The notes below the pieces were generated by a model that saw only the letters and a program-made list of their open reading frames with translations, searched no databases and was not told the DNA's origin. This document shows, piece after piece, positions 5,681 to 44,051 of a DNA stretch of 64,000 nucleotides. This DNA is from Cellvibrio sp. PSBB023 (GTDB taxonomy: Bacteria; Pseudomonadota; Gammaproteobacteria; Pseudomonadales; Cellvibrionaceae), in NCBI RefSeq assembly GCF_002007605.1, contig NZ_CP019799.1, positions 2,644,001 through 2,708,000 of the forward strand, read 5' to 3'. How positions within the stretch are numbered: the first letter of the stretch is position 1; each line of letters begins with the position of its first letter. The position numbers and the translations under genes are program-made.

Positions 5681-6043
5681 ATGACTCACTATATTGATGG
5701 TTTTTTACTGCCCATTGCCCCCGAGAAAATTGCTGAATACCAAAAAATGGCGAGCCTTGCCGGTTCGGTGTGGAAAGAGCACGGCGCGCTGGCCTATTGG
5801 GAATGTGTGGGCGATGACCTGAACATTACCGATATGGTTTCCTTTAAACAATCGGCGGGCTGTAAGGACAACGAGACCGTTGTGCTTGCGTGGATTGTGT
5901 ACCCCTCACGCGAAGCGCGCGACAAGATTAATGCCGCCGTCATGGAAGATCCACGCCTGAAAGATATGTGCAATAACGATTCACTGTTTGATTTCAGGCG
6001 CATGGCTTACGGCGGTTTTACCGAGCTGGTGCGATACCAATAA
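5681..6043 (+). CDS. DUF1428 family protein
   Basis: A 120-residue cytosolic protein starting MTHYIDGFLLPIAPEKIAEY, the typical DUF1428 opening, with the later FRRMAYGGFTELV ending. DUF1428 proteins have a dimeric alpha+beta-barrel (ferredoxin-like) fold and no established reaction. AAAGGAG lies 7 bp before the ATG. It is the first gene after the ECF42-type sigma factor and is followed by VOC and DGPF genes, the usual company of this sigma group. Confidence 0.85.
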   Translation: MTHYIDGFLLPIAPEKIAEYQKMASLAGSVWKEHGALAYWECVGDDLNITDMVSFKQSAGCKDNETVVLAWIVYPSREARDKINAAVMEDPRLKDMCNNDSLFDFRRMAYGGFTELVRYQ

Positions 6044-6084
6044 CTCAACCATTTCATGCTTAGCGTTTAACAAGGAATTGCATT

Positions 6085-6489
6085 ATGCCAACCCAAGTAT
6101 TTATCAATTTACCCGTGAAAGACCTGGAAAAATCCAAAGCGTTTTTTGCCCATTTGGGCTATTCGTTCAACCCGCAATTTACCAATGAGCAAGCCGCCTG
6201 CATGGTCATTAGCGACACGATTTACGCCATGTTATTAACCGAACCGTTTTTCCAGGGCTTTACCAAAAAAACTATCGCCGATGGTCACAGCAGCAAAGAA
6301 GTGTTGATTTGTCTCTCCTGCGAGAGCCGCGAGGCGGTGGATGAGATGGTCAAAAAAGCCTGGGAAGCAGGCGGCACAGCGCCTATGCCCGCACAGGATC
6401 ACGGGTTTATGTACTATCACAGTTTTGAGGATTTGGACGGCCATCACTGGGAAGTGATGTATATGGACCCAGCGCACATACAAGAGTAA
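6085..6489 (+). CDS. VOC (glyoxalase/bleomycin-resistance) superfamily protein
   Basis: A 134-residue protein with VOC fold features: QVFINLPVKDLEKSKAFF at the start and a closing YYHSFEDLDGHHWEVMYMDP. The usual metal-ligand positions are partly replaced, so the activity cannot be stated; many such single-domain VOC proteins accompany DGPF genes. AAGGAA precedes the ATG. It belongs to the sigma-DUF1428-VOC-DGPF cluster. Confidence 0.85.
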   Translation: MPTQVFINLPVKDLEKSKAFFAHLGYSFNPQFTNEQAACMVISDTIYAMLLTEPFFQGFTKKTIADGHSSKEVLICLSCESREAVDEMVKKAWEAGGTAPMPAQDHGFMYYHSFEDLDGHHWEVMYMDPAHIQE

Positions 6490-6521
6490 ATACAGCACCA
6501 ATTAGAGGAGCGATGCCCGCT

Positions 6522-30665: not shown

Positions 30666-31059
30666 CATTTAGACCCGAAAGAAAGTCAGTTAAGAAAATC
30701 AGGCAGCGTTATGCTGCGTAATTGACATTCACAAACACGTAGCACTAGCATCGAACAAATAGCCCAACCAGCACATAGCAAATGTAGGGCGCGCCTCGCG
30801 GAGCAGGCCGCCGAAGGACAGGAAAGAGCCCAAAGCGGACAGCAAGCCAAATGAGCGCAGCAACTAATTGAGATTGTTTGTACTGTATAACTCCACAATT
30901 AATTCGGAGTGACAGTTAACCCTTTGATTTAGCACGAACCAAATCGAATGCAGGCTCATCTACTTTTGGAGTTATACAGCACCACACCAAATTAGTTGGA
31001 ATAACGTTCTGCGGGTTATATAGTTGGCGCAATTTAATAAACTGTTAGGGATTAAAAAC
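30666..31059. other. Gene-free stretch at the left edge of the cassette array
   Basis: No convincing gene. It contains a core-site-like GCGTTATGC at 30706-30714, the same nine bases as at the right end of the attC at 35411-35517; a GC-rich stretch at about 30785-30860 that looks like a dispersed repeat; a 13-bp inverted repeat (30883-30895 and 30967-30979); and GGGTTATAT shortly before the first cassette gene. It could be a decayed attI/attC boundary or an ORF-less cassette. Confidence 0.4.
30883..30979. repeat. 13-bp perfect inverted repeat
   Basis: CTGTATAACTCCA at 30883-30895 and TGGAGTTATACAG at 30967-30979 are exact reverse complements 71 bp apart. A smaller inverted pair, ACTCC and GGAGT, lies inside. 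It sits directly left of the first cassette gene. Confidence 0.7.
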
Positions 31060-31827
31060 ATGCTATCACCACACAAATGGGAAATAGGCGTATCTGCTGG
31101 TAGTTATTACCCGAGCCTTACGCAAGATTTTTGGGGTAATGACATCGGTCTTGCATATGACGACGATCATCTAGGTATGCAATTTTATGCTTTCTCTTAC
31201 CATATCGATGAAATTGAAGATCCCGAACATGTGGCCTGCCGGCTATTTAGTCTTAATTTGTTATTGAACGGAGCGCTTAGGGTCGCTTGGAATAAAAATT
31301 TTGCCGTTCCAGTTGAGTTTACGCATTTTGCACTATGTGATGGTGGGGGCCAACATTCTGTACACGCTGCGAATATCGAAAACAATCCCTTTAGTCAAAA
31401 CGCCGACATAGATAAGTACGAGCATGAAGCCACTCCCGCCAGTGGCAGGCTTTCATCACGAATATTCAATCTCTGTAAAAAAGATGAGGTATTACGGTCT
31501 TTAATATTTCAAGTTGGGCTGATTTCACTAAATTCTTCCTTGGAAACGATAATGACATGGGGAACTCTGTACAAGATATACGATAGCGTCAAATATCATT
31601 CGAAGAAAAATAACTACGATTTTTTGAAATTGGGAGATCCCGGTCGGATTAATCAATTCACGGCCGCATGTAATAGCTCGCTACTTCTTGGGGTTTATGC
31701 GCGCCATGGTGATATGGGGTGGGGTCAACCTGCGGCGGCGATTACAGATATTAACGAAGCGACAAGCCTTATACTCGATCTCGCTAATAAATTTTGTTTG
31801 GTGCATATTGGTGCTCAGCATCCCTAA
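31060..31827 (+). CDS. Integron cassette protein 1, unknown function
   Basis: A 255-residue cytosolic protein without recognised family. Its C-terminal half is helical: SLETIMTWGTLYKIYDSVKYH, later FTAACNSSLLLGVYARHG, loosely recalling HEPN/ApeA-type helical domains, but the match is too weak for a call. ATG 31060 is chosen because a TTAGGGA lies upstream; a TTG at 31024 would add 12 residues. The stop codon lies inside the R'' box of the attC that follows, as is common in cassettes. Base composition is more AT-rich than the chromosome on either side. Confidence 0.75.
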   Translation: MLSPHKWEIGVSAGSYYPSLTQDFWGNDIGLAYDDDHLGMQFYAFSYHIDEIEDPEHVACRLFSLNLLLNGALRVAWNKNFAVPVEFTHFALCDGGGQHSVHAANIENNPFSQNADIDKYEHEATPASGRLSSRIFNLCKKDEVLRSLIFQVGLISLNSSLETIMTWGTLYKIYDSVKYHSKKNNYDFLKLGDPGRINQFTAACNSSLLLGVYARHGDMGWGQPAAAITDINEATSLILDLANKFCLVHIGAQHP

Positions 31828-31941
31828 CAAAAAGCTGCACGCGGAAATATTTTACTACGCTCGCTTTTGTGTATTTCGCTGCGCTACATTTTCACACAAA
31901 AGCGCTCTCCGTAAAATATTCCGGTGAGCTTGGCGTTATGT
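31822..31941 (+). repeat. attC site 1 (integron cassette recombination site)
   Basis: CCCTAAC (31822-31828) as R'' and GCGTTATGT ending at 31941 as R'. Between them are paired arms: AGCTGCACGCGG with CCGGTGAGCT, AATATTTTAC with GTAAAATATT, and CGCTTTTGTGT with ACACAAAAGCG. The imperfect palindrome of 120 bp with conserved ends and variable middle is the attC layout. Confidence 0.8.
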
Positions 31942-31951
31942 GAATATTGAA

Positions 31952-32266
31952 ATGAGCATTCCAAAGAAAGGAAGTAGAAAAATTATAGTGGGCGAAAATG
32001 AGTTTTTGTGGCTCATCAGGTCAAAACCCACATATTCGCAGGACTGTTTAGGTGCAGAAATGACTGCGGTCGTTGAACTGGTGGAATTGAACGGCTCTAT
32101 CTTGCGAATTACTTTTCCATTTTCACGTCCAGACACGTCTCTTAAATTAAAGTCTGGTAGCGTAACTCCGAGCATGGTTGAGCAAAGCATTAAAAATGCT
32201 ATTTCTCAAGGCTGGAACCCTAAGGCTTCTAACAGTGTTTTTGAATATAGGCATACAAGTACATAA
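31952..32266 (+). CDS. Integron cassette protein 2, small unknown
   Basis: A protein of about 104 residues (ATG 31952; GTG 31940 would add four and overlap the attC R' box). No signal peptide or TM. It has beta-rich strands (AVVELVELNGSILRITFPFS) and a C-terminal VTPSMVEQSIKNAISQGWNP pattern seen in small hypothetical proteins of bacterial accessory regions. Function unknown. It lies between attC 1 and attC 2, and its stop codon falls in the R'' box of attC 2, so it is a complete single-gene cassette. Confidence 0.7.
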   Translation: MSIPKKGSRKIIVGENEFLWLIRSKPTYSQDCLGAEMTAVVELVELNGSILRITFPFSRPDTSLKLKSGSVTPSMVEQSIKNAISQGWNPKASNSVFEYRHTST

Positions 32267-32400
32267 CAAGCGGTTGCAACGCCGCTACAGCGCTTCGCGC
32301 TTACGCTCGACAGTTTGCAAGCAGCGCATTTAGCGAATCGCTACGCGAAGTTTATCGTAAATGCGCCGCTTACAAACTGCGGTTGAACCGAACGTTACAT
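32261..32400 (+). repeat. attC site 2
   Basis: ACATAAC (32261-32267) as R'' and AACGTTACAT (to 32400) as R'. Paired inner arms include GCGGTTG with CAACCGC-type ends, AGTTTGCAAGC with GCTTACAAACT, and GCGCATTTA with TAAATGCGC. Length 140 bp, longer than attC 1. Confidence 0.75.
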
Positions 32401-32406
32401 TTGAAT

Positions 32407-32808
32407 ATGAAAAATCACATAATCGCAAGCATCATGGTGCTTTTATCTTTAAGGTGCTATTCATCAGAATGGATAGCAGTTGGCCAGCAACCTGACCTGC
32501 CAAATGCTGGTCAGCTTGAAAGCCAACTTTGGAAGTATTTAGAGAACAACAGCAAAACTGAATTCCAGCCTAGGGAAATATACAGGTATCAGTACAAATT
32601 TATTGGTGAGTCTTTAATTCTGATTAATGCACTATGCATTCAGTCACCTGAAGTTGAAGCTGAGCTTGGCACTTATCCGGGGCCAACCACAGAAGAACTA
32701 AAAAAACAGTTATATCAAGTGCAGGACGGTGGGAGCTGCTTTTTTAACATTAAATACAATCTTAAAAGCGAACGCTTTCATTCTCTCTATGTAAACGGTA
32801 GTGCGTAA
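32407..32808 (+). CDS. Integron cassette protein 3, exported unknown
   Basis: A 133-residue protein starting MKNHIIASIMVLLSLRCYSS, a signal peptide cleaved after about residue 20. The mature part has three Cys, of which two (ALCIQS and GSCFFN) could form a disulfide, and a hydrophilic middle. No family recognised. The ATG at 32407 begins the signal peptide, 7 bp after attC 2; a start 24 bp upstream would lie in the attC. It ends next to attC 3. Confidence 0.7.
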   Translation: MKNHIIASIMVLLSLRCYSSEWIAVGQQPDLPNAGQLESQLWKYLENNSKTEFQPREIYRYQYKFIGESLILINALCIQSPEVEAELGTYPGPTTEELKKQLYQVQDGGSCFFNIKYNLKSERFHSLYVNGSA

Positions 32809-32810
32809 AA

Positions 32811-32925
32811 ATGTAACAAAGCAATCAAACGGATGGATTTTTAAGTTGCTCTTTTGCCATTCCGCTTCGCTCCATTTTATGGCAAAAGAGCAACTTAAAA
32901 ACCACCGTTTATCGCGGCGTTAACT
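32811..32925 (+). repeat. attC site 3
   Basis: GTAACAAAGC near 32813 as R'' and GCGTTAACT (to 32925) as R'. A long paired stem: AAGTTGCTCTTTTGCCAT with ATGGCAAAAGAGCAACTT, 18 bp perfect. It is closely similar to the attC at 35411-35517, as usual for sites within one chromosomal integron. Confidence 0.88.
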
Positions 32926-32944
32926 CCACTTAGAAATATAGCGC

Positions 32945-34225
32945 ATGGTAAAAATTAAAGTAAATGACCCATGCCCATGTGGTAGTGGTAGAAAATACAA
33001 GAAATGCTGTAAATATAAAGATGTTATCTGGGAGCAAGATGATACCGGTGATTATTACCAAGTAATTCCAATAAAAGGAAAACTTGAAGAATTGGTCGAG
33101 CAATTGGATGATGAAATATATAAGCATTTTGAACGCGAGCGGCTACCAGACGACCCGTTAATGCCTCATACGTTAATGTTTAGTGATAAGGATCACGAAA
33201 GAAAAATGATTGAGATAATGGAGAAAGTAGGCACTAATCCTGCTTTTATTTATGCGTACAAGCGGACTGGCATTCTTCTTACTGATGGAATGGTAGAGAA
33301 GGCCACTGGCTCTCTTGTCGACGAATGGGATAACGCCGTCGCTGAGTACTATGCTTTTGGTGGCGACCCAGAGAGAGAAAGTGAAGATAGGCAGTTCGAA
33401 TCAAAGCTGAGCCTTCTTATTGATGACATTGATTCGCTCATATATTTATTCGGTATCTGCATCAAAAAGTATTTCAACGAGGACTTCTCTGATGACTCCG
33501 CGCCGGATGGTGCAGAAATATTGTCCCCAGTAGCGTATATGGGATTAAATCTCGCAAAGTCTCAGAGAACACTTAGATCGATCAAGTATCTGATTGTTGA
33601 AGACTATAACGAAGATGCACTTAAACTTGTTCGTGGCATATATGAAAATTATCTTCATATTATTCTCGTCAAAAACAAACCAGATAGTGTTGTTTCTCTT
33701 GTAGATGCAAAGTACGGTATTCGAGATGGAACTTTTAAGTATCTAGAAAAAAATGGTAAAGAAGATAGGCGTAAAGTGGTTCGCTGTTCCACTGGAGATA
33801 TTTATCCGTCGAATATTTCAGGATATAAAATGGCGGAGTCAAGTAATCGAGATTTTGATATAGATTTCTACGACCTCTTTTATCAAAGAGTATCTGATGT
33901 TGTTCATCCAAGTGTTTTTAATATTAGGGATTATGTTCGAGACGATAAACTTAGTCCACTGGATTCTGACTGGAAAGAGGAGGCAGTAATATACTCCGTC
34001 TTTGTTGGGTGTTTGATTAGCTTTGAAATTATGGATATTAAGCATCTTCCCGCTTCGTTGCAAGGAGACTGTGCGGCAGTAGCTCGAAGGTTGCTAGCTC
34101 ATCTAATTGAAACGCTCGAATTTTTAAGGATGTGGAGCGATAGAATCGGAATTGAGCATCCAGAGTTAAAATTAGTTTGCAAGCGATCTAATGAAATCCT
34201 TTCAAATATAGGTGTAAAGAGTTAA
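32945..34225 (+). CDS. Cassette protein 4: SEC-C zinc motif plus DUF5677-like domain
   Basis: A 426-residue cytosolic protein. Residues 8-22, DPCPCGSGRKYKKCC, are a SEC-C metal-binding motif (CxC...CC). The C-terminal part (about 200-400) has LRSIKYLIVEDYNEDALKL then RGIYENYLHIILV and YQRVSDVVHPS, which resembles DUF5677, an alpha-helical domain of unknown activity. At 1281 bp it is a large cassette. It may be a defence or stress protein, but nothing in it proves this. The stop codon TAA lies inside the R'' box of attC 4, which is interrupted by the IS. Confidence 0.82.
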   Translation: MVKIKVNDPCPCGSGRKYKKCCKYKDVIWEQDDTGDYYQVIPIKGKLEELVEQLDDEIYKHFERERLPDDPLMPHTLMFSDKDHERKMIEIMEKVGTNPAFIYAYKRTGILLTDGMVEKATGSLVDEWDNAVAEYYAFGGDPERESEDRQFESKLSLLIDDIDSLIYLFGICIKKYFNEDFSDDSAPDGAEILSPVAYMGLNLAKSQRTLRSIKYLIVEDYNEDALKLVRGIYENYLHIILVKNKPDSVVSLVDAKYGIRDGTFKYLEKNGKEDRRKVVRCSTGDIYPSNISGYKMAESSNRDFDIDFYDLFYQRVSDVVHPSVFNIRDYVRDDKLSPLDSDWKEEAVIYSVFVGCLISFEIMDIKHLPASLQGDCAAVARRLLAHLIETLEFLRMWSDRIGIEHPELKLVCKRSNEILSNIGVKS

Positions 34226-34229
34226 CAAG
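34220..34229 (+). other. attC site 4, left fragment (R'' side)
   Basis: AGTTAACAAG directly at the end of the 32945-34225 gene is the R'' end of an attC whose remainder is found 1.2 kb further on, at 35411-35517. The insertion sequence between them split the site. Confidence 0.7.
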
Positions 34230-34265
34230 CGACTGTGGTAAAAAATCAATACCTACGACGCAAAT

Positions 34266-35400
<1,135 letters not shown>

Positions 35401-35410
35401 ATCAATCATA

Positions 35411-35517
35411 CAAGCAATCAAACGGATGGCTTTTAAGTTGCTCTTTTGCCATTCTGCTCCACCCCATCTTATGGCAAAAGAGCAACTTAAAAATCACCGC
35501 TTATCGGGGCGTTATGC
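35411..35517 (+). repeat. attC site 4, main part
   Basis: CAAGCAATCAAACGGATGG at its left, the paired stem AAGTTGCTCTTTTGCCAT with ATGGCAAAAGAGCAACTT, and GGCGTTATGC (to 35517) as R'. Nearly the same as attC 3, differing mainly in the loop. Its R'' end lies at 34220-34229 across the IS. Confidence 0.88.
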
Positions 35518-35569
35518 AATGAGAAAAGCCTATAGCAATGTATGAAACCAGTTTAAAAAGGTTTGAGAT

Positions 35570-36667
35570 ATGTATGGACAAGTAGAGAAACCGAAAAAGA
35601 ATAAAGGTCAATCAGTAGCAAATGCGATTTCTCAAAATCATAGGGGCAATGAGTCTACTTTTCAATTTGTAGATAATAGACCAGAAGCTGTTGCGCAAAG
35701 AAAGCTTCAGGAGATGGCAAATAATAGTCCGAAAGCCAAACAAATGAGTCAATTAAAGGTCTCGACTGACAACTATTCAGCACAACAGCAGCCAATCCAA
35801 AAGAAAGATTTGACCATTCAGAAAATGGATGAATCAGATGAGAAAAAACCCGGTGTATATATTGCCCCAAAAGGTAGAAAATTAAGTCCAGAGGAAGAAA
35901 AGAAGGCTCTTTTAATTGATTCAGATATAAGTTATCAACTCTATAAATTTTTAGAAAAAGAAAATTTTAATAATCTTACTTTCACAAATGAAGGAACTAA
36001 AAGTGATTACATTACGGTTCTTTTAAACACATCCATCTTCCTTGATGACGGGAAGGAACATCCGATAAGAATGAATATTCATCGCTACAACACTAAGGAA
36101 CCTGTGCTTGGCAGTATTTGGGTGAGTTATGTCAAACATAAAAAAAGTGACCTGAATGCACAAACCAACCCAAAATCATATTCTTTACTTAAAGCATGGA
36201 AATTTCAACAAAGTAAAGATACCCAAAAAGATACGGAAGCTCACCGGCCTGAATTAGAAACCACTGATAACGCAATCGATGATTCCACAATTGAAGCCCC
36301 AAATTTAAAAGAAACAAAATTATTTGCGGAAGAAATTGAAGTGGAGAGGTTTTTTGATATTAATGTGGAAGCAGAAAAGACAACAAATCAAATAGAAAAA
36401 ATATTAGAATTAATTAAAAAATTATATGAGCATGCAGGGACAATAGGCAATAAAGCTTTAAAGCTCGAAATAGAACGTCAGGGGGAAATCATTGAATCGA
36501 ATAGTCAGTCGATTACCAAGGCATTTCAAAGTAGTAATGATGAAAAATTCAAAACTATAGTAATAAAAAACGCGATTACGACGTTTAGTGAGCAAATTGA
36601 TGACTTGAAATATCTTGATAGCATTAAAGACAAATATTACGATAACATATCGAAACCTCATTGGTAG
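35570..36667 (+). CDS. Cassette protein 5: DUF4157/eCIS-cargo-like leader with unknown C-terminal region
   Basis: A 365-residue hydrophilic protein. Residues about 15-65 carry the leader found ahead of DUF4157 domains in contractile-injection-system-associated proteins: QSVANAISQNHRGNESTFQF, VDNRPEAVAQRKLQEMANNS, then a Q-rich stretch with DNYSAQQQPIQKK. The DUF4157 peptidase-like domain itself is absent; instead there is a beta-rich middle (about 115-200) and a helical, charged C-terminus (about 250-365) of unknown function. No signal peptide. It follows attC 4 by 52 bp. It may be an injected effector, but no injection-system genes are in the window. Confidence 0.72.
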   Translation: MYGQVEKPKKNKGQSVANAISQNHRGNESTFQFVDNRPEAVAQRKLQEMANNSPKAKQMSQLKVSTDNYSAQQQPIQKKDLTIQKMDESDEKKPGVYIAPKGRKLSPEEEKKALLIDSDISYQLYKFLEKENFNNLTFTNEGTKSDYITVLLNTSIFLDDGKEHPIRMNIHRYNTKEPVLGSIWVSYVKHKKSDLNAQTNPKSYSLLKAWKFQQSKDTQKDTEAHRPELETTDNAIDDSTIEAPNLKETKLFAEEIEVERFFDINVEAEKTTNQIEKILELIKKLYEHAGTIGNKALKLEIERQGEIIESNSQSITKAFQSSNDEKFKTIVIKNAITTFSEQIDDLKYLDSIKDKYYDNISKPHW

Positions 36668-36883
36668 AGATAGCTAGTAATAAGGGCAAGCAATCAAAAA
36701 AGTCCATGACAAAACCTAAAAACCATTGTAAACGGCTTTTAGACCAATTGTTACTAATTGAAATGTACATAAAAAAATACATCGAACACTGAAAAGCGCG
36801 CCGCTGATTTTGACGTTGAAGCTGTAGCCGCGACCAATCGATTGTTTTTCAGTAAAATAACGTATTCCCACAGGAGCGCGCTT

Positions 36884-37135
36884 ATGCCAAAGTTTATTCC
36901 TTACAATCACGATCAAAATTCCATGGTGGCGATTAATTTTCGCGATCAATTACAATCTGGCACTTTTGGGCACGCTATGCATTATCTCACTCACGAGAAA
37001 CTTGCCCTATCCATCTTTTATTGCGCCTACCATAATAAAGACAGCTGCAGGTCTGTTTGCAATCCTGCAATTTTATTGAGTGTTGTATTGTTCGCGCGTT
37101 CAAAAGGCATTATGTCCAGTCGTGAAATTGAATGA
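36884..37135 (+). pseudogene. IS1182-type transposase, N-terminal remnant
   Basis: The reading frame MPKFIPYNHDQNSMVAINFR, later HAMHYLTHEKLALSIFYCAYHN and LLSVVLFARSKGIMSSREIE, matches the first 80 residues of IS1182-family transposases, then stops; the DDE catalytic domain is missing. Downstream codons (CCMDYIALLGHDW) still look like family sequence for a short distance. CAGGAG precedes the ATG. It is a degraded insertion in the cassette array, probably what removed most of the attC after cassette 5. Confidence 0.75.
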
Positions 37136-37327
37136 TGTTGCATGGATTATATTGCATTACTTGGGCATGATTGGTTGAAAATCAGAAAGTAGTTAGGCAA
37201 AGTGAGCCAATAAATTATTAATCAATTGGCTGTAGGTAAATTCAGTAGTTATTGGGGTTTTCTATAGCTTAGTTATAGCAAATCCGTAGCAACAACCTTA
37301 GTTAAATATCATTAAATTAGGAGTCGT

Positions 37328-37688
37328 ATGCGAAAAATAATTTTTTTTAATGGCAGCAATATTGGGCGCTGAAAACAGCTGGGCAGGACAATGGGTTAGT
37401 TTAAATCCAGCTGATATAGTCTCGATACAAATTACACAATCCACCAACTCAGCTGCTCAAACAGAGGGGCTATATATAGCACTAAAAAATCCGATCATTG
37501 GTGAGGCTGCATCATATTGCGCGAGGAAAGATTTTGTTGTTATCACCGACGCTAAACTAATAGACAGAGCATTCTCCGCCTATTTATTTGCGGCTGCCAG
37601 TCAGAAAACTATCCAGTTTTATCTTGACGGTGCAGGGAAGTGTGCCTACAACGGTCCAATTGCAACAATTTTTACATTAAACCCCTAA
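37328..37688 (+). pseudogene. Cassette gene 6, exported protein interrupted by a frameshift in a T8 tract
   Basis: From ATG 37328 the frame runs MRKIIFFNGSNIGR and stops. Removing one T of the T8 run gives MRKIIFLMAAILGAENSWA, a good signal peptide joined to GQWVSLNPADIVSIQITQST and on to the stop at 37688. The mature part (Cys-containing, about 100 residues) is related to the protein at 38722-39051: W-V near the start, TEG-Y, an ITDAKLIDRAFSAYLFAA block and a Gly-Cys near the end. The two resemble small DUF5992-like exported proteins. A real frameshift, a slippage-controlled switch or a sequencing error are all possible. Confidence 0.65.
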
Positions 37689-37703
37689 GCCAACTATAAC
37701 AAG

Positions 37704-38629
37704 CGACCGTGGTAGAAAATCAATACCTACGACGCAAATTTAGTTGGCCTGCTATTCGCAATTATCACACACGATGGCCTTTAAAATCGTTGTCATTTTT
37801 CGCATGCAGGCCGTAAGTGCAACTTTTTGTGCTTACCCTGCTTGACGAACTTCTTGTAAAATTTTTTCATCACAGGATTGCATTGAATCGCGCTCAGTAT
37901 CGCCATATACAGCGCCGTGTGAATTGGTGCACGGCCGCCTTTGATTCGGCGTCGACCTTTCATAATGCCACTGTCACGATTGTATGGCGCAAGCCAACAA
38001 AGCGCTGTTATTTTGCATGGCGATAGCTGACCCAGCTCAAGTAACTCTCCCAACAGCGTAAAGGAACTACATCGCCGACGCCCGGTACCGAGTTCAGAAT
38101 TTCATACGTGCGCTGCCATTCCGTGACTTCACTAACTGCTTTGGTGAGCAGCTTATTGATGCTTTCAATCTCTTTATCGAGCACTTTAAGCAAACGTTTA
38201 TGGGTTGCTGTAAGAATCGAAGTCGCTTTGTGCTGACGATTCAACTCCCGGGATCCGCATCTTATTAAGTTGGCGCTTGCGTGAGAGTAATTCACGAATC
38301 CCTTCCGGGGTACTGCAAATAGACATCGAGTTCGAAAATGCAGGCATCCAATGTGATTTTTCCGATATCGATTCCTACATTTCTTTCACTGCGATCAATG
38401 TGTGCGGCGGTAGTTGTATTCATAACTCAGCCTTGCTACATTCGAGCTCGGAGCCCATTCGACTGCTTGAGTTAAAAGTAGAATCAGTAAGACGCCCACG
38501 CTTGTTAACGGACTCGATGATTCGGTTCCAGCGTTGCACCGGGCTACCTTGCTGAAGATCTATTGCTGCAGGTATGGACTCCACCTTATCGCTTTAAGAA
38601 TGATAAGAAAATTGTCAAAATCAGTCATA
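37704..38629 (-). mobile_element. Second IS110/IS1111-type element, internally deleted
   Basis: About 930 bp, same orientation and family as the copy at 34230-35410. It starts CGACCGTGGTAGAAAATC after ATAACAAG and ends GTCAAAATCAGTCAT before ACAAG. About 250 bp inside the transposase gene are missing: GAGAGTAA is joined directly to TTCACGAATCCC. It also has small frameshifts. It too sits at an attC-like TAACAAG. Confidence 0.82.
37740..38423 (-). pseudogene. IS110 transposase remnant
   Basis: Corresponds to the intact 34266-35204 gene with about 250 bp deleted, which removes the region with the second and third catalytic acidic motifs. There is a one-base loss in the C-terminal part (near 37826), altered bases around 38064, and TAG in place of the final TGG. 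It cannot make a working transposase. Identity to the intact copy in the shared 3' part is about 86 percent by hand count. Confidence 0.85.
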
Positions 38630-38700
38630 CAAGTCGTTGCAGCTCGCACACTTTGTCTGCAGGACAGTTTTTAAGTCGTAGCTTTATGGGTAAGACCAAC
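38630..38700 (+). other. attC-like remnant after the second IS
   Basis: ACAAGTCGTTGCAGC at the IS edge and a pairing CTGCAGGACAG, followed by TTAAGTCGTAGC-TTTATGGG. With ATAACAAG at 37696-37703 it may be the two halves of a diverged attC split by the second IS. A clean R' (GTTRRRY) is not visible. Confidence 0.4.
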
Positions 38701-38721
38701 ACACCAAAAAATGGAGAAAGC

Positions 38722-39051
38722 ATGAAAAAGACGATAATGCTACCAATTCTATTTGCTGCATCATTTAATTGTTTGGCTGCGGAATGGGTAGAAGCCAATC
38801 TTAATCAAATAGAACTCGCAGGGGCTGGTGTAACAGAGGGAGTATATTTTGCAAAAGATACACCATATCAAACCAGCTACACATGCCCAAACAGTCGGTA
38901 TATCTCTGTTAAAGAAACAAAAATGGCTGATAGAACACTTTCATTAGCTTTATATGCAAAAAGCACCTCTTCTAAATTAAGAATTTATATAACTGGTTGC
39001 GATGCTCAGGGCTATTTAAACGGTGTACAAAGCATGCTCGTATCACAATAA
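38722..39051 (+). CDS. Cassette protein 7, small exported (DUF5992-like)
   Basis: A 109-residue protein with a signal peptide, MKKTIMLPILFAASFNCLAA, and a mature domain starting EWVEANLNQIELAG. Two Cys (YTCPNSR and TGCDAQG) may form a disulfide. It is related to the frameshifted cassette at 37328-37688 (TEGVYFAKD vs TEGLYIALK; MADRTLSLALYAKS vs LIDRAFSAYLFAA), so the array carries two diverged members of one exported family. GGAGAAAGC precedes the ATG. Function unknown. Confidence 0.72.
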   Translation: MKKTIMLPILFAASFNCLAAEWVEANLNQIELAGAGVTEGVYFAKDTPYQTSYTCPNSRYISVKETKMADRTLSLALYAKSTSSKLRIYITGCDAQGYLNGVQSMLVSQ

Positions 39052-39119
39052 TAAATAACACCATAATTTTTTAATTGTTTTTTGTATACTTTAGAAAGTA
39101 CATAAAAAAGGAGTTCATC

Positions 39120-39584
39120 ATGAGTATTACCATTTTAAAAGACATACTAATTTCTAAAGGACAGGTAGATAGAATTTTTGAAGGCTCAGTGCCAATCAAT
39201 TTATGGCGAGCGCTAAACAAAAAATCGAACACAGGTGTTTTTAGCTTTATAGAGGAACCCACTATTCTTTCAAATGGCCGGCCTCGCGCTGCGGACATAA
39301 AAATTGAACACAGAAATGGTGTAAAGTGGGTGAGCGTAAAGAATAGGCCAAGAGGCCTAAGCACATTTGACAAGCCCGGCCTACCAAAAGGCAAAGACTG
39401 GGAATATTACAAAATCCCCAAAGGAACAGTACTACCTGAAGGCATAGCCATAGTAAAAGACGAGTACAATACAATCTTAGGTGCTCATCACTACACCATT
39501 GCTCCTGCTTATGACATGCCATTATCTCAATTCAAAGCAAAGCTTGACCAGCTTGCAATTAAATTACTTAAAGAGGCCATGTAA
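39120..39584 (+). CDS. Tse2-like ADP-ribosyltransferase-type toxin
   Basis: A 154-residue protein whose C-terminal 90 residues match the Tse2 toxin pattern from Pseudomonas: GLSTFDKPGLPKGKDWEYYK, IPKGTVLPEGIAIVKDEYNT, LGAHHYTIAPAYDMPLSQF. Tse2 is a type VI secretion effector that acts in the cytoplasm and has an ADP-ribosyltransferase-like fold. No secretion or adaptor domain is fused here. AAGGAG lies before the ATG. The stop codon overlaps the start of the immunity-like gene (TAATG), so the two are coupled. It could serve as a plain toxin-antitoxin module next to the cassette array. Confidence 0.75.
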   Translation: MSITILKDILISKGQVDRIFEGSVPINLWRALNKKSNTGVFSFIEEPTILSNGRPRAADIKIEHRNGVKWVSVKNRPRGLSTFDKPGLPKGKDWEYYKIPKGTVLPEGIAIVKDEYNTILGAHHYTIAPAYDMPLSQFKAKLDQLAIKLLKEAM

Positions 39585-39796
39585 TGGAAATTCCAAATGT
39601 TTGGGCCCCGTTATTAGTATCAGCCGTTAGAGACGCCGTTCTATTTCAAGAGCAACTTCTAAAAAGCGAAACTATTCGCAACAGGGCTGACTATGAAGAA
39701 CATCATTTACAGTTAACCCAGTTTCTGGAATTTATAAAAGAAGAATATAAATCGATTGAAGGCGAAGTCGGATTACCCTTAGAGCGCTTGCTGTAA
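39584..39796 (+). CDS. Tsi2-like immunity/antitoxin protein
   Basis: A 70-residue helical acidic protein. Its pattern (hydrophobic start VSAVRDAVLFQEQLL, RADYEEHHLQLTQFLEFIKEEY, closing GLPLERLL) resembles Tsi2, the small helical-bundle immunity protein of Tse2, which ends in a similar GLPPYDRL. Its ATG overlaps the toxin stop by one base. The function is inferred from this likeness plus position. Confidence 0.68.
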   Translation: MEIPNVWAPLLVSAVRDAVLFQEQLLKSETIRNRADYEEHHLQLTQFLEFIKEEYKSIEGEVGLPLERLL

Positions 39797-39806
39797 AATA
39801 CAAATG

Positions 39807-39824
39807 CTGGGCATTACTGCCCAG
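39807..39824. repeat. Palindromic intergenic repeat
   Basis: CTGGGCA, loop TTAC, TGCCCAG, with the flank CCTACA shared with the repeats at the start of the window. A related hairpin (TGGGTA-TTAC-TACCCA) is at 41616-41631 after the S41 gene. Confidence 0.6.
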
Positions 39825-39980
39825 CCTACATTAAATACTAACTGCTTTTATTGGAAAATAGCGGGAATTGTTTACCGCCATTTGTATCTACACTGTTACA
39901 AATTGATAACACGTGATACAGCTTTACGCGGTTTGGTGGTTTAGGTTATCCCTTCCCGGTAACCTAAAGGTGCATCAAAT

Positions 39981-41606
39981 ATGCGTTTTACAAAACATGC
40001 GGTTTTATCAAGATATATCGCGGCTATTGCCTGGTTTAGCCTGACATTATTAATTGGTTGTTCAGATGACGACCACAAGAAACCTTCCCGCTCATCTTCT
40101 TCAGCTTCCGTATCTAGCAGCTCTTCCAGCTCAGCGGCAAACAGTTCCTCCTCCAGTTCTGTGGCGGCGTCACCCTATGCGGGTGAATGGTATGCGCCTG
40201 CTTATGGTTATGTGTTATCGGTAAGCACCCAGGCGGATGAGTTTAGGGTTAAAACATATAGCGTGACAGAAGATTATTGTTTATTGCAGAACGTGACGCC
40301 TAACTTACCGCAAGAAAAGTTTGAACAAAGCTATTCCTATTCAAAACTGGCGAAGGAAACACTGCGCAAGGTGAATGGGCAATATGCCCCTGGTGTTGAA
40401 TACGAAAAAATCGCGCAACTGCCATCCACCTGTACGGAAGACCTGCAAACCTTAAAGACAGATTCCGGTTATGCCTTTAATGCCGAAAGAGACTTTGAAA
40501 TATTTTGGCACACATTTAATGAGCTCTACATTAACTTCGAATTAAGAGGCGTAGATTGGGATGAAGCCTATGAAGAAGCCGTTAATTCCCTGGGCGACAT
40601 TCATACGGAGGAAGAGCTGTTTGAATTTTTAAGTGAGCTGATTGCCCCGCTAGGTGATGGTCATGCGATTTTGATCCACGCACCACTCAGCCAAAATCTG
40701 GATGAAAGTATAACTAAAGCGTTGGAAGATGAAGACACACCCAACTTCAGCACAAACACACAATTACGGTTGTATGAAAAATTATTGAATGAGTATGTAG
40801 CGTCACTTGGGTCTGATGATGAGTTAACCGAGGAGCAAGCCGCAGAGGCGGAAAACTATATAGCGTCCAACGTTGATAATATTATGGAAACTATTTTTGG
40901 TTATGCCGATGAAAATGTTGATATTAAGGTGAAGGCAGCAGGCGAAATCACCTGGTTTACAACAAGTGAAAATATTGGGTATTTGTTTATAGGCTCAATG
41001 TCTGACTATACCGAGGGAAAATCAACCGTTATTTCTGACGTTGCTGTTGATGTTGCCATAGCAGAGGAAACTATTAACGAGGCACTGAAAGACCTTGAAG
41101 ATACGGATGGCCTGATCGTTGATGTTCGTTTTAATGGCGGCGGCCAGGATCAGGTATCGCTCAGTTTTGTGCGTCACTTTATGAGTCAGCCGCAAGTGGT
41201 GTATTCAAAATTTGCAGGCCGTGACGACTTGGCGACGCCAGTGAAAGAAGTCGTACTAGACCCGCCAGTGGATAACCTGTATCTAAAACCCACAGCCGTA
41301 TTAGTGAGTGGCGATACAGGAAGCGCCGCCGAGTTATTTACCATTGCGATGTCTTCTTTACCGCAAGTCACTATTATCGGTGAGCCAACCGCGGGGGCAT
41401 TTTCCGATGTACTGGTTAAACGCCTGACTAGCGATATTATTTTCGGGATAAGCAATGAAACTTACCTGGATACCAAAGGAAATAATTATGAGGGAGTAGG
41501 TATAGCGGCCGATATTTCAGTAGCGTTTGGCACCCCGCAAGAGCGTAAGGGCGGATATGACAATGGATTGGATACAGCGATAGATTGGATTAAGGCTTAT
41601 CACTAA
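39981..41606 (+). CDS. S41 family peptidase, lipoprotein with polyserine linker
   Basis: A 541-residue lipoprotein: signal peptide with lipobox LLIGC (Cys at about 28), then a polyserine linker (about 38-62) of the kind used in Cellvibrio-type extracellular enzymes. The catalytic S41 (C-terminal processing peptidase, tail-specific) domain is in the last 200 residues: GLIVDVRFNGGGQD, SGDTGSAAELFTIAM with the likely nucleophile Ser, IGEPTAGAFSDV. The middle helix-rich part (HTFNELYINFELRGVDWDEAYEEA) is usual for tricorn-core-like S41 members. Probably processes or degrades proteins at the cell surface. Confidence 0.9.
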   Translation: MRFTKHAVLSRYIAAIAWFSLTLLIGCSDDDHKKPSRSSSSASVSSSSSSSAANSSSSSSVAASPYAGEWYAPAYGYVLSVSTQADEFRVKTYSVTEDYCLLQNVTPNLPQEKFEQSYSYSKLAKETLRKVNGQYAPGVEYEKIAQLPSTCTEDLQTLKTDSGYAFNAERDFEIFWHTFNELYINFELRGVDWDEAYEEAVNSLGDIHTEEELFEFLSELIAPLGDGHAILIHAPLSQNLDESITKALEDEDTPNFSTNTQLRLYEKLLNEYVASLGSDDELTEEQAAEAENYIASNVDNIMETIFGYADENVDIKVKAAGEITWFTTSENIGYLFIGSMSDYTEGKSTVISDVAVDVAIAEETINEALKDLEDTDGLIVDVRFNGGGQDQVSLSFVRHFMSQPQVVYSKFAGRDDLATPVKEVVLDPPVDNLYLKPTAVLVSGDTGSAAELFTIAMSSLPQVTIIGEPTAGAFSDVLVKRLTSDIIFGISNETYLDTKGNNYEGVGIAADISVAFGTPQERKGGYDNGLDTAIDWIKAYH

Positions 41607-41678: not shown

Positions 41679-43982
41679 TTACGGCAATAAATCAATTTCC
41701 CGTTGCTTGGGGTCTGCACTCACATGCAGCTGTGATTTTCCTTTGCGCACTCTTCGCTCACCTAACAGCATCACAATAGGCGTCGCAATTAAAATAGATG
41801 AACTGGTGCCGATAACTATGCCGAATAACATAGGCAGAGAAAAACTGGACACCGCACTGCCACCGGCAATCGCCATAGGCAAAATCGCCAGAAAGGTAGT
41901 GATCGAGGTGAAAATGGTGCGCGTGAGCGTTGAGGTAATACTCTCGTTGAGTAATTGTACCAAGGGCTTATCTGGCGTGAGACGCAGGTTTTCACGAATG
42001 CGATCAAATACAACGACTTTGTCATTTACCGAATAACCAATTAACGCGAGCAATGCCGCCACCGCAGTGAGGTTAAACTCCACTCCAGCCAAGGCAAAAA
42101 AGCCGATGGTCTTGGTGAGATCCAGCGCGAGAGTGAGTGTCGCAGCCAGTGCAAAGTGGGATTCAAACCTTACCCACAAATAACCGAGCATGCCCAAGCC
42201 TGCCAGAATAATCGCGAGGATTGTCGCATCACCAAAATCACCGCTAACACGAGGGCCAACCATTTCTACACGCGGAAATGCAGCGTCCGGTGCGATGGCG
42301 GTAACAGCAGATTTAACGGCTTGCACGCTGGTGCCATTAGCAATATCTTCCGCAGATGGCATGGGCAGGCGCAGCAGGTAGTGACCATCGTTCCCGAATT
42401 CCTGAATGGCTACTTGTCCCTTACCTTCATCTGCCAAGCCTTTGCGCAAGGCGGCGACATTGGTGTCTGGCGCTTGTACTTCAATGACGGTGCCACCACT
42501 GAAATCGATGCCGTAATCCAGCCCCGGGCTAAAAAATAAAAACACAGAGGCAAGTGACAATACGGCCGAAGCCATCAACCCGAAAAAACGCGCGCGTAAA
42601 AAGGGAATGGTATTTTCACTGATGCTATCTAACCATTTGATGCCGGAAATAATTAACGATTGTTTACCCAATTTACGCACACGCCATTCCATCACCAAAC
42701 GTGTAAATGAAATGGCCGTGAACATGGAAATAATTAAGCCAACAGCCATAGTCACGGCAAAACCGCGTACCGGGCCACTGCCAAATAAAAATAATAAACT
42801 GATGGCAATCAGCGAAGTGACATTGGAATCCAGAATAGTGCTGTAAGCGCGCTGGAAGCCACCACTGAGGGCGGCCATGGCCGGTTGCCCGCGCCGCGTT
42901 TCTTCGCGGATGCGTTCATTAATTAAAATATTCGCATCCACCGCCATGCCAATACTTAAAATAAAACCGGCAATACCTGGAAGCGTGAGTGTTGCACCAA
43001 GCAAACTCAACACACCAAAACTCAAACCGATATTTATCGCAAGGCCAATACAAGCAATAAAACCCCAGCGACCATAAATGCCCACCATAAACGCGAGCAC
43101 TAACAGCGCGCCCACAATACCGGTGCTAATCCCCATAGAAATTGCATCGCTACCTAAATCCGGCCCGACAGTGCGCTCTTCAATTACTTTTAAAGGAGCA
43201 GGCAATGCGCCGGCACGCAATAACAACGCCAAATCATTTGCCGATGCGCTGGTAAAAGAACCGCTGATTTCGCCGCTGCCACCTTGAATCGCACTGCGAA
43301 TGACTGGCGCGGTGACGACTTTATCATCCAACACAATTGCCAATACGCGCCCGACATTGCGTTTGGTCATATCGCCAAAACGGCGTGCGCCTTCGTTATC
43401 CAATTTGAAATTGACCACGGGTTCGCCGGTATCGTGATTAAACGCAAGCCGCGCATCACTGATGTGTTTTCCCTCCATGGCAACACGCTCTTCCAGTTGA
43501 TAGCGCTCACCCGCTTCACCATTGACGGTAATAACCTTGGTGTGCAATGGCGATTGATTATTGGCCGCCCAGTGAAACGTCATGCGCGCCGTAGTACCTA
43601 ACAGATCGCGAATATGCTGGGGGTCACTCACGCCGGGAAGCTGCACCAGAATACTGTCGCGCCCCTGACGGGTGATCATGGGTTCCACCATGCCGGTTTC
43701 ATCCAGGCGACGGCGCACCACTTGCAAACTTTGCTCTACAGCATCGCGCACGATTTGTTCGTGCAGCGCCGGATTTTTATTGCGAACCAATTCGCTGGTA
43801 TCGACTTCCAGCAACAGATGCGATCCACCGCGTAGATCAAGCCCGAGGGTTAATTGATTTTTGGCATACCAATCCGGCAGTTTTGCCAGAGCGGAATCGG
43901 GTAACAGGTTGGGCAGCGCACTGAGCAGCCCGAATAGGATAATCAGACCATACACAATGGCCCGCGAAAAAAGGGTTTTCAT
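41679..43982 (-). CDS. secDF: Fused SecD-SecF protein translocase accessory subunit
   Basis: A 767-residue inner-membrane protein joining SecD and SecF. SecD part: LTLGLDLRGGSHLLLEVD, GALPAPLKVIEERTVGPDLGSDAI, and a TM block ending GIAGFILSIGMAVDANILINERI. SecF part begins about residue 455: GLDYGIDFSGGTVIEVQA and LIGYSVNDKVVVFDRIRE. These use the proton gradient to help protein export. Gammaproteobacteria normally have separate secD and secF beside yajC, so this is probably a second copy. ATG 43982 follows a GGAG; a TTG 6 bp upstream is less likely. Confidence 0.93.
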   Translation of the reverse strand: MKTLFSRAIVYGLIILFGLLSALPNLLPDSALAKLPDWYAKNQLTLGLDLRGGSHLLLEVDTSELVRNKNPALHEQIVRDAVEQSLQVVRRRLDETGMVEPMITRQGRDSILVQLPGVSDPQHIRDLLGTTARMTFHWAANNQSPLHTKVITVNGEAGERYQLEERVAMEGKHISDARLAFNHDTGEPVVNFKLDNEGARRFGDMTKRNVGRVLAIVLDDKVVTAPVIRSAIQGGSGEISGSFTSASANDLALLLRAGALPAPLKVIEERTVGPDLGSDAISMGISTGIVGALLVLAFMVGIYGRWGFIACIGLAINIGLSFGVLSLLGATLTLPGIAGFILSIGMAVDANILINERIREETRRGQPAMAALSGGFQRAYSTILDSNVTSLIAISLLFLFGSGPVRGFAVTMAVGLIISMFTAISFTRLVMEWRVRKLGKQSLIISGIKWLDSISENTIPFLRARFFGLMASAVLSLASVFLFFSPGLDYGIDFSGGTVIEVQAPDTNVAALRKGLADEGKGQVAIQEFGNDGHYLLRLPMPSAEDIANGTSVQAVKSAVTAIAPDAAFPRVEMVGPRVSGDFGDATILAIILAGLGMLGYLWVRFESHFALAATLTLALDLTKTIGFFALAGVEFNLTAVAALLALIGYSVNDKVVVFDRIRENLRLTPDKPLVQLLNESITSTLTRTIFTSITTFLAILPMAIAGGSAVSSFSLPMLFGIVIGTSSSILIATPIVMLLGERRVRKGKSQLHVSADPKQREIDLLP

Positions 43983-44051
43983 CGCCAATACTCCACAATG
44001 CTCTCGACTGCGAAAGCAAAAAATTATTGAAATCGGTATTACGGGGAGTGA

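Follow-up and report, generated by a model that had tools for sequence, protein, structure and literature searches.

A cassette array probably carried by an orphan attI platform in Cellvibrio sp. PSBB023

Integrase-less clusters and the array beside secDF

Integron cassettes are found in complete integrons, where an integrase gene (intI) and an attI site accompany the array, and in clusters of at least two attC sites lacking integron integrases (CALINs). In the sections of PMC9024848 cited here, 2961 integrase-less clusters were counted in public genomes against 2760 complete integrons, and CALINs were proposed to be degraded integrons. IntegronFinder is stated there to detect no attI outside class 1 integrons; therefore, the CALIN class is silent on the presence of attI. 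Dispersed CALINs of Xanthomonas, as described in the cited part of PMC12444791, occupy addresses that are conserved between species, some of them beside secF or secD, and the authors contrast these addresses with scattered insertions at secondary (attG) sites. The present study concerns a cassette array beside secDF in Cellvibrio sp. PSBB023, within a stretch of 64,000 nucleotides (nt) called the window. It is a CALIN by definition, having at least two attCs, cassette genes on the same strand and no integrase nearby. What sets it apart is an attI of its own at its head, and it probably represents an integron array seated on an orphan attI platform, that is, an attI without an adjacent integrase. 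The position beside secDF is shared with the Xanthomonas CALINs, by coincidence or through a common preferred address. The cited part of PMC12444791 reports no attI for those clusters, in contrast to the attI-headed arrays of Cellvibrio; the conservation of addresses would be explained by orphan attIs.

The genome of the window (G000) is a single contig, C1, of 4,705,304 bp, and the window is C1:2644001-2708000. At this locus the closest relative with a name is Cellvibrio sp. OA-2007, with 86% protein identity. The genus sample was composed of 21 genomes, three of which are single contigs (G000, G005, and G014). A covariance model of attC (R1) was trained on 11 attCs of the resident integron of G000 and none from the window. 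A sequence model of attI (R2) was trained only on seven integrase-adjacent attIs and was counted at E<=1e-3 per genome. The genome scans for both sites scored 150 first-look candidates in each genome, and the site counts are lower bounds. The sites of the window array are listed below, with R1 scores and with z values for bottom strands folded as single-stranded DNA in comparison with shuffles.

30783..30882, plus strand: leader preceding the attI, without a likely gene; found in cluster B of G000 as well
30883..31047, plus strand: attI, type M; core AATAAACTG^TTA at 31036-31047, crossover at 31044/31045
31822..31941, plus strand: attC1; 59.5 bits, z -5.25
32261..32400, plus strand: attC2; 79.9 bits, z -4.23
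32811..32925, plus strand: attC3; 101.4 bits, z -8.48
34219..34229, plus strand: left piece of attC4, the R'' box, ending AACAAG; insertion sequence (IS) directly after
35411..35517, plus strand: right piece of attC4; 86.5 bits over 35382-35517, 88% and 84% identity to resident attCs, z -6.36
37694..37703, plus strand: left piece of attC5, the R'' box, ending AACAAG; read from the sequence
38630..38690, plus strand: attC5 remnant, 5' half only

The array is headed by an attI that R2 scored at 38.5 bits (E 2.6e-10, 30990-31047). A preliminary description, made from the window's letters, had set the left border at 30706, which does lie upstream of the attI, but the attI itself was not seen there. 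This site is 73% identical over 172 nt to the intergenic region between attI and intI of G020. It belongs to a module that recurs in G000 before two other arrays, namely before cluster B (C1:233705-233967, 92% over 263 nt, the match starting at window position 30783) and before the array at 2865 kb (C1:2865092-2865254, 94% over 163 nt). The attI next to the resident integrase terminates (308580) in the same 12-mer, AATAAACTGTTA, that stands at 31036-31047 in the window; in seven genomes of the genus, a divergent intI match starts about 240-380 bp away from this 12-mer. The form of the 12-mer is like the attI1 core AAACAAAGTTRRRY and the attI2 core AATAAAATGTTRRRY of class 1 and class 2 integrons, as given in the cited part of PMC12901181. 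Those sites lie beside intI or are truncated within cassettes, whereas whole attI regions are dispersed without intI in Cellvibrio. The 12-mer occurs eight times in G000 against none for the reversed control, and one of the eight sites (4113993) has neither attI context nor attC. As the sole marker of attI it was rejected because of its background: in the 21 genomes together it gave 62 hits and the reversed control 42. Therefore, R2 was built and used for the counts. Separately, a leader with GAGTTTACGAAC and stretches like GTAGGGCGCGC...GCCGAAGG was observed upstream of attIs of types M and iii at different addresses; the recurring GAGTTTACGAAC leader is found at L044 (7700-8070), L136, and L062 (11240-11400).

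All four attCs at 59.5-101.4 bits were recovered by R1. The preliminary description had asked for a covariance-model search, naming a lack of matches as its refutation, which did not occur; its boundaries for attC1, attC2 and attC3 were exact to the base. It was also right that attC4 is split by an IS, an IS110-family transposase lying between the two pieces. For each of the four bottom strands none of 200 shuffles folded as well as the real sequence, and all four formed long hairpins. The best folds of attC1 and attC3 have R'' and R' boxes paired around internal loops, as in an attC fold. The boxes of attC2 are paired in the centroid and not in the lowest-energy fold, and attC4 was folded as the piece without R''. 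The stem that attC3 and attC4 had been said to share is indeed of identical sequence and perfect in both, at 23 and 22 nt rather than 18 bp. The cassette genes are all on the plus strand and three of their stop codons (31827, 32266, and 34225) fall within R'', both as first described; the stop of the third gene (32808) is outside R''. What had been taken as a possible diverged remnant near 38630 scored only 13.2 bits with R1 (38624-38689, E 0.96), though blastn matched it to a resident attC at 80% over 61 nt (38629-38689, E 1e-10). The match supports its being half of an attC that would belong to another sub-type of the resident integron. Rfam at gathering thresholds gave no matches in the window.

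A search for intI on the same replicon, also proposed in the preliminary description, found a single integron integrase above the NCBIfam cut-off at C1:308962-309897 (425 bits against 265). It aligns with IntI4 of V. cholerae over residues 5-311 of 312. The resident integron is located at 0.299-0.310 Mb, with an array of at least 12 attCs (299315-308078) to the left of intI, 11 of which are the training sites. The window array lies 2.37 Mb away from this integrase by map coordinate. In the whole window, tblastn with three IntI types gave a best E of 0.33, in agreement with the earlier statement that no integrase is present. The cluster is thus CALIN-like, as had been proposed, with attCs of the host's own type. 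The other suggestion, that a large array has its far end here, did not hold: the array begins at its own attI and constitutes the attI-proximal end of a distinct platform.

At least seven places with attCs were found in G000 outside the resident integron: 230273-233206 (four), 1835761-1837010 (three), 2317374, the window (four), 2794529, 2865701, and 3984422; a weak match at 3055343 (E 0.25) was left out. Host-type attCs and one resident intI-attI-array are also the features of a sedentary chromosomal integron of the Vibrio kind, from which Cellvibrio differs in that attI platforms outnumber integrases. A second difference concerns the strand. The attC bottom strands of the resident and window arrays are on the lagging-strand template, whereas the cited part of PMC11023631 places those of sedentary chromosomal integrons on the leading-strand template. 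With dnaA at 3419005 and dif matched perfectly at 1116735, five of the seven non-resident places have the bottom strand on the lagging-strand template and two do not; a replication-orientation bias was rejected as not significant.

Orphan attIs and cassette turnover across Cellvibrio

At least 60 attIs were found by R2 in 15 of the 21 genomes. Eight of the 60 lie within 2 kb of intI, namely one site in G018 and the seven used for training. In the single-contig genomes there are at least seven (G000), 11 (G005), and six (G014) attIs, and only one of the 24 found adjoins an integrase. G005 has no intI above the cut-off, and in G014 more than 130 kb separates the only intI from the closest of the six attIs. 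The 12 other attI-bearing genomes consist of 2 to 670 contigs, so an integrase could be missed there. Among the candidates scored, R2 found no attI in G002, G003, G004, G008, G009, and G016. Further attI lineages unseen by R2 may exist because attCs are present in G002, G004, G008, and G009 (G003 and G016 were left out of the attC scan). Our literature search found no paper on dispersed integrase-less attIs, which does not establish their absence from print.

The attIs are followed by attCs. With only the better-scoring strand kept per site, a same-strand attC lies within 1.5 kb downstream of 44 of the 55 attIs with enough sequence (median 481 nt), five of the 60 having been excluded for too little sequence. 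Upstream, an attC lies within 1.5 kb of 2 of 59 attIs, and in no case was the better-scoring strand the opposite one. The attIs of G000 at 896 kb and 2200 kb have no model attC and are followed by one gene and then the remnant of an attC-targeting IS, which is a search match at 2200 kb and a reading by eye at 896 kb. An earlier table of sites picked by pattern held 60 distinct sites, two having been dropped for an identical 72-nt key (L130 and L132). There, an attC was present at 31 of 39 sites with attI context against 3 of 13 without (Fisher p 4e-4); this tally mixes types R and iii and is superseded by the count over all 60 R2 sites. The three context-less sites with an attC were L146, L150, and L151, of which R2 later scored L146 and L151 and did not list that of L150. 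Three same-strand tandem attIs of at least two types were also observed within 6 kb of G005 (C1:3848439-3854407; L135, L136, and L175). Model attCs follow two of them and not the third.

The same addresses recur between species with different contents. At the address G000G/G005a the left flank is 87% identical over 1219 nt, the attI is 95% identical up to +2, and the right flank is 88% identical over 647 nt, and no match longer than 36 nt was found between the conserved parts. Flank matches were also found for G001C18/G005b/G014c (L142/L130/L152) and G005e/G010C18 (L136/L159), with module matches of 71-84% to +2 to +4; beyond the attI there are only matches of attC length, 53-131 nt. Because the flanks and usually the attI are conserved to the crossover while the cassette genes differ, the cassettes were exchanged after the species split. 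In 458 pairwise alignments of the pattern-picked sites, 248 end at +3 and none extends past +42; the picking pattern itself ends at +3 and only the absence of longer extensions is informative. G001 and G010 share one 520-nt cassette, 97.5% identical, which occupies a different address in each; the homology starts at the CG^TTATAC core in both.

The address of the window was also compared. In two relatives (L055 and L056) the upstream gene and secDF are separated by only about 160 nt, whereas in G010 (L062) there is a different attI-headed array. Three further relatives (L053, L057, and L065) hold other sequence at this address, without a model attC. The attI type differs between species at two addresses, namely between the window and G010 and between G005e/G010C18 and G014. 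Since a recurring address can hold different attI types, platforms may have been replaced or re-seeded at the same spots.

Origin of the platforms and rival explanations

The platforms are best read as integrase-less attIs that would derive from integrase loss and/or attI duplication and were possibly loaded in trans, an activity that we infer. An intI pseudogene stands beside one type M attI in G001 (L157), and intI relics remain in G010 (L148, beside a type M attI; 25 amino acids (aa), E 0.002 for a 22-aa match) and G011 (L170, 28 aa). Therefore, some orphan attIs appear to be former complete integrons. On the other hand, orphan M modules often have 219-285 nt in common with each other, and more at shared addresses, compared with mostly 165-192 nt in common with integrase-adjacent M attIs. 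This longer homology points to duplication of the orphan modules. A fixed left border of the M module was looked for and not found, as the homology ends vary by pair (about -166, -187, -219, -233, or -259); a transposon-like unit is therefore not supported.

In the proposed course of events, intI would have been lost from former complete integrons and attI would have been duplicated together with its leader. Cassettes would be cut out in the form of folded attC bottom strands and joined in at G^TTA (31044/31045); the integrase responsible would be encoded at another chromosomal location or would formerly have been present. The resident IntI would accept the type M attI, and expression would come from the module. 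Two IS110-family elements at AACAAG in R'' would later have broken two attCs, freezing the distal cassettes. As a tentative extension, Cellvibrio may have a distributed integron, in which one integrase serves several attI platforms in trans, attI modules are dispersed as docking elements, and cassettes circulate among fixed addresses. If this is true, one integron could be spread over the whole chromosome and attI-headed clusters would be docking sites loadable by a distant integrase, which is a simple and testable account. The attI then becomes a feature to annotate, although the standard tool ignores it outside class 1. It also makes testable whether an integron integrase acts on attIs elsewhere on the chromosome.

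Several observations weigh against the orphan-platform reading. The resident IntI of G000 adjoins and pairs with a type R attI, whereas that of the window is type M. The integrases that type M adjoins, in G020 and G007, are of other IntI lineages, and the IntI of G020 is 54% identical. The window counterpart in G010 bears another attI type; therefore, turnover is best shown at platforms other than that of the window. Three single attCs of G000 (2317374, 2794529, and 3984422) have no attI by R2, and 11 of 55 attIs have no attC within 1.5 kb downstream. Finally, most of the 21 genomes are drafts in which the integrase may sit on another contig, and a clean count is given only by the three single-contig genomes with their 24 sites.

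It is possible, though we would not presume it, that a complete integron at this position lost its intI and that the array has been inert since, cassettes having entered only with intI adjacent. This explanation overlaps with that of orphan platforms in origin and differs from it in operation. The pseudogene of G001 and the relics of G010 and G011 are in its favour, as are one TGA within the intI of G012 and the decay of the window array through IS insertions and an attC remnant. It is opposed by the six orphan attIs of G000, around which no intI relic was found at E<0.05 other than a 31-aa fragment on the array side of the 2200-kb attI, at a distance of 3.2 kb. The greater extent of homology among orphan M modules than with integrase-adjacent ones, and the different cassette genes between species at shared addresses, also argue against it.

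Insertion at an attG site has reportedly been described by Loot et al. in 2024. The resident integrase could have put cassettes into a random secondary site in the window. This route is described as cited in parts of PMC11023631, PMC12444791, and PMC12901181, and the three single attCs of G000 without attI would fit it. For the window array it is very improbable: R2 recognizes the insertion point as attI, and this attI sits within the module repeated at 92-94% before two other arrays of G000. Relocation of a piece of the resident integron, attI with cassettes, by rearrangement or IS recombination would explain the common attC sub-type and the IS110 copies, and yet it too seems most unlikely. 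The attI types differ (M against R), no intI fragment was found in the window by tblastn, and none of its open reading frames (ORFs) matched another platform in a comparison of ORFs up to 9 kb downstream of 47 attIs (55% identity, 70% coverage, E 1e-12). Chance palindromes among ordinary genes, a reading with nothing found in its favour, are refuted for practical purposes by the independent attC model, the R2 match, the placement of attCs at attIs, and the fold z-scores.

Cassette genes, IS elements, and neighbouring genes

The genes and IS elements of the array are as follows.

31060..31827, plus strand: cassette 1 gene, 255 aa, function unassigned; no matches in Pfam, NCBIfam, or PADLOC
31952..32266, plus strand: cassette 2 gene, 104 aa, function unassigned; no family match above cut-off
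32407..32808, plus strand: cassette 3 gene, 133 aa, exported-looking by eye, function unassigned; no family
32945..34225, plus strand: cassette 4 gene, 426 aa; SEC-C motif (PF02810, E 5.4e-8) and DUF5677 (PF18928, E 8.5e-11)
34230..35410, minus strand: IS110-family element in attC4 (PF01548, PF02371); ends uncertain by a few nt, CAAG at both junctions
34266..35204, minus strand: transposase of this IS, with the longer non-coding region (35205-35410) upstream of its start
35570..36667, plus strand: first gene after attC4, 365 aa, function unassigned; no family above cut-off
37350..37688, plus strand: gene just before attC5, 112 aa, exported-looking by eye; no family
37704..38629, minus strand: decayed second IS110-family copy in attC5; C1:2681702-2682293 at 85%, 2682285-2682629 at 92%
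38722..39051, plus strand: gene after the attC5 remnant, 109 aa, exported-looking by eye; no family

PADLOC gave only weak matches, to the SEC-C motif of cassette 4. The gene at 35570-36667 has no family above cut-off despite its N-terminal DNRPEAVAQRKLQEMANNSPKAKQ, which presumably recalls the leaders of DUF4157-kind proteins.

The IS110-family elements were inserted after AACAAG in the R'' of attCs in the window and the resident integron alike, and a copy of 91% identity lies inside a resident attC (C1:299916-301119). Repeated insertion at one fixed R'' position is shared with the IS1111-attC group (ISKpn4, ISPst6). The cited part of PMC11187229 describes the named attC-targeting elements as IS1111 types with a downstream non-coding region and a longer upstream region as the usual IS110 pattern, with exceptions. 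Unlike that group, the window IS has the longer of its two non-coding regions ahead of the transposase, with 206 nt upstream of the start and 36 nt past the end. It is possibly an IS110-type attC-targeter.

Outside the window array, L045 (cluster C) carries at 6013-6504 a 163-aa ORF that by eye resembles a GNAT acetyltransferase and is followed by an attC-like palindrome unlike the host style. In the window, the array region (30783-41606) adjoins secDF (41679-43988). An S41 peptidase gene (39981-41606) lies between the array and secDF, and it had no tblastn match in the loci of 18 relatives. At the distal end of the array, 39120-39584 encodes a Tse2-type ADP-ribosyltransferase toxin domain (PF18648, E 9.8e-25), and a 70-aa ORF (39584-39796) follows directly; the two look like a toxin-antitoxin pair.

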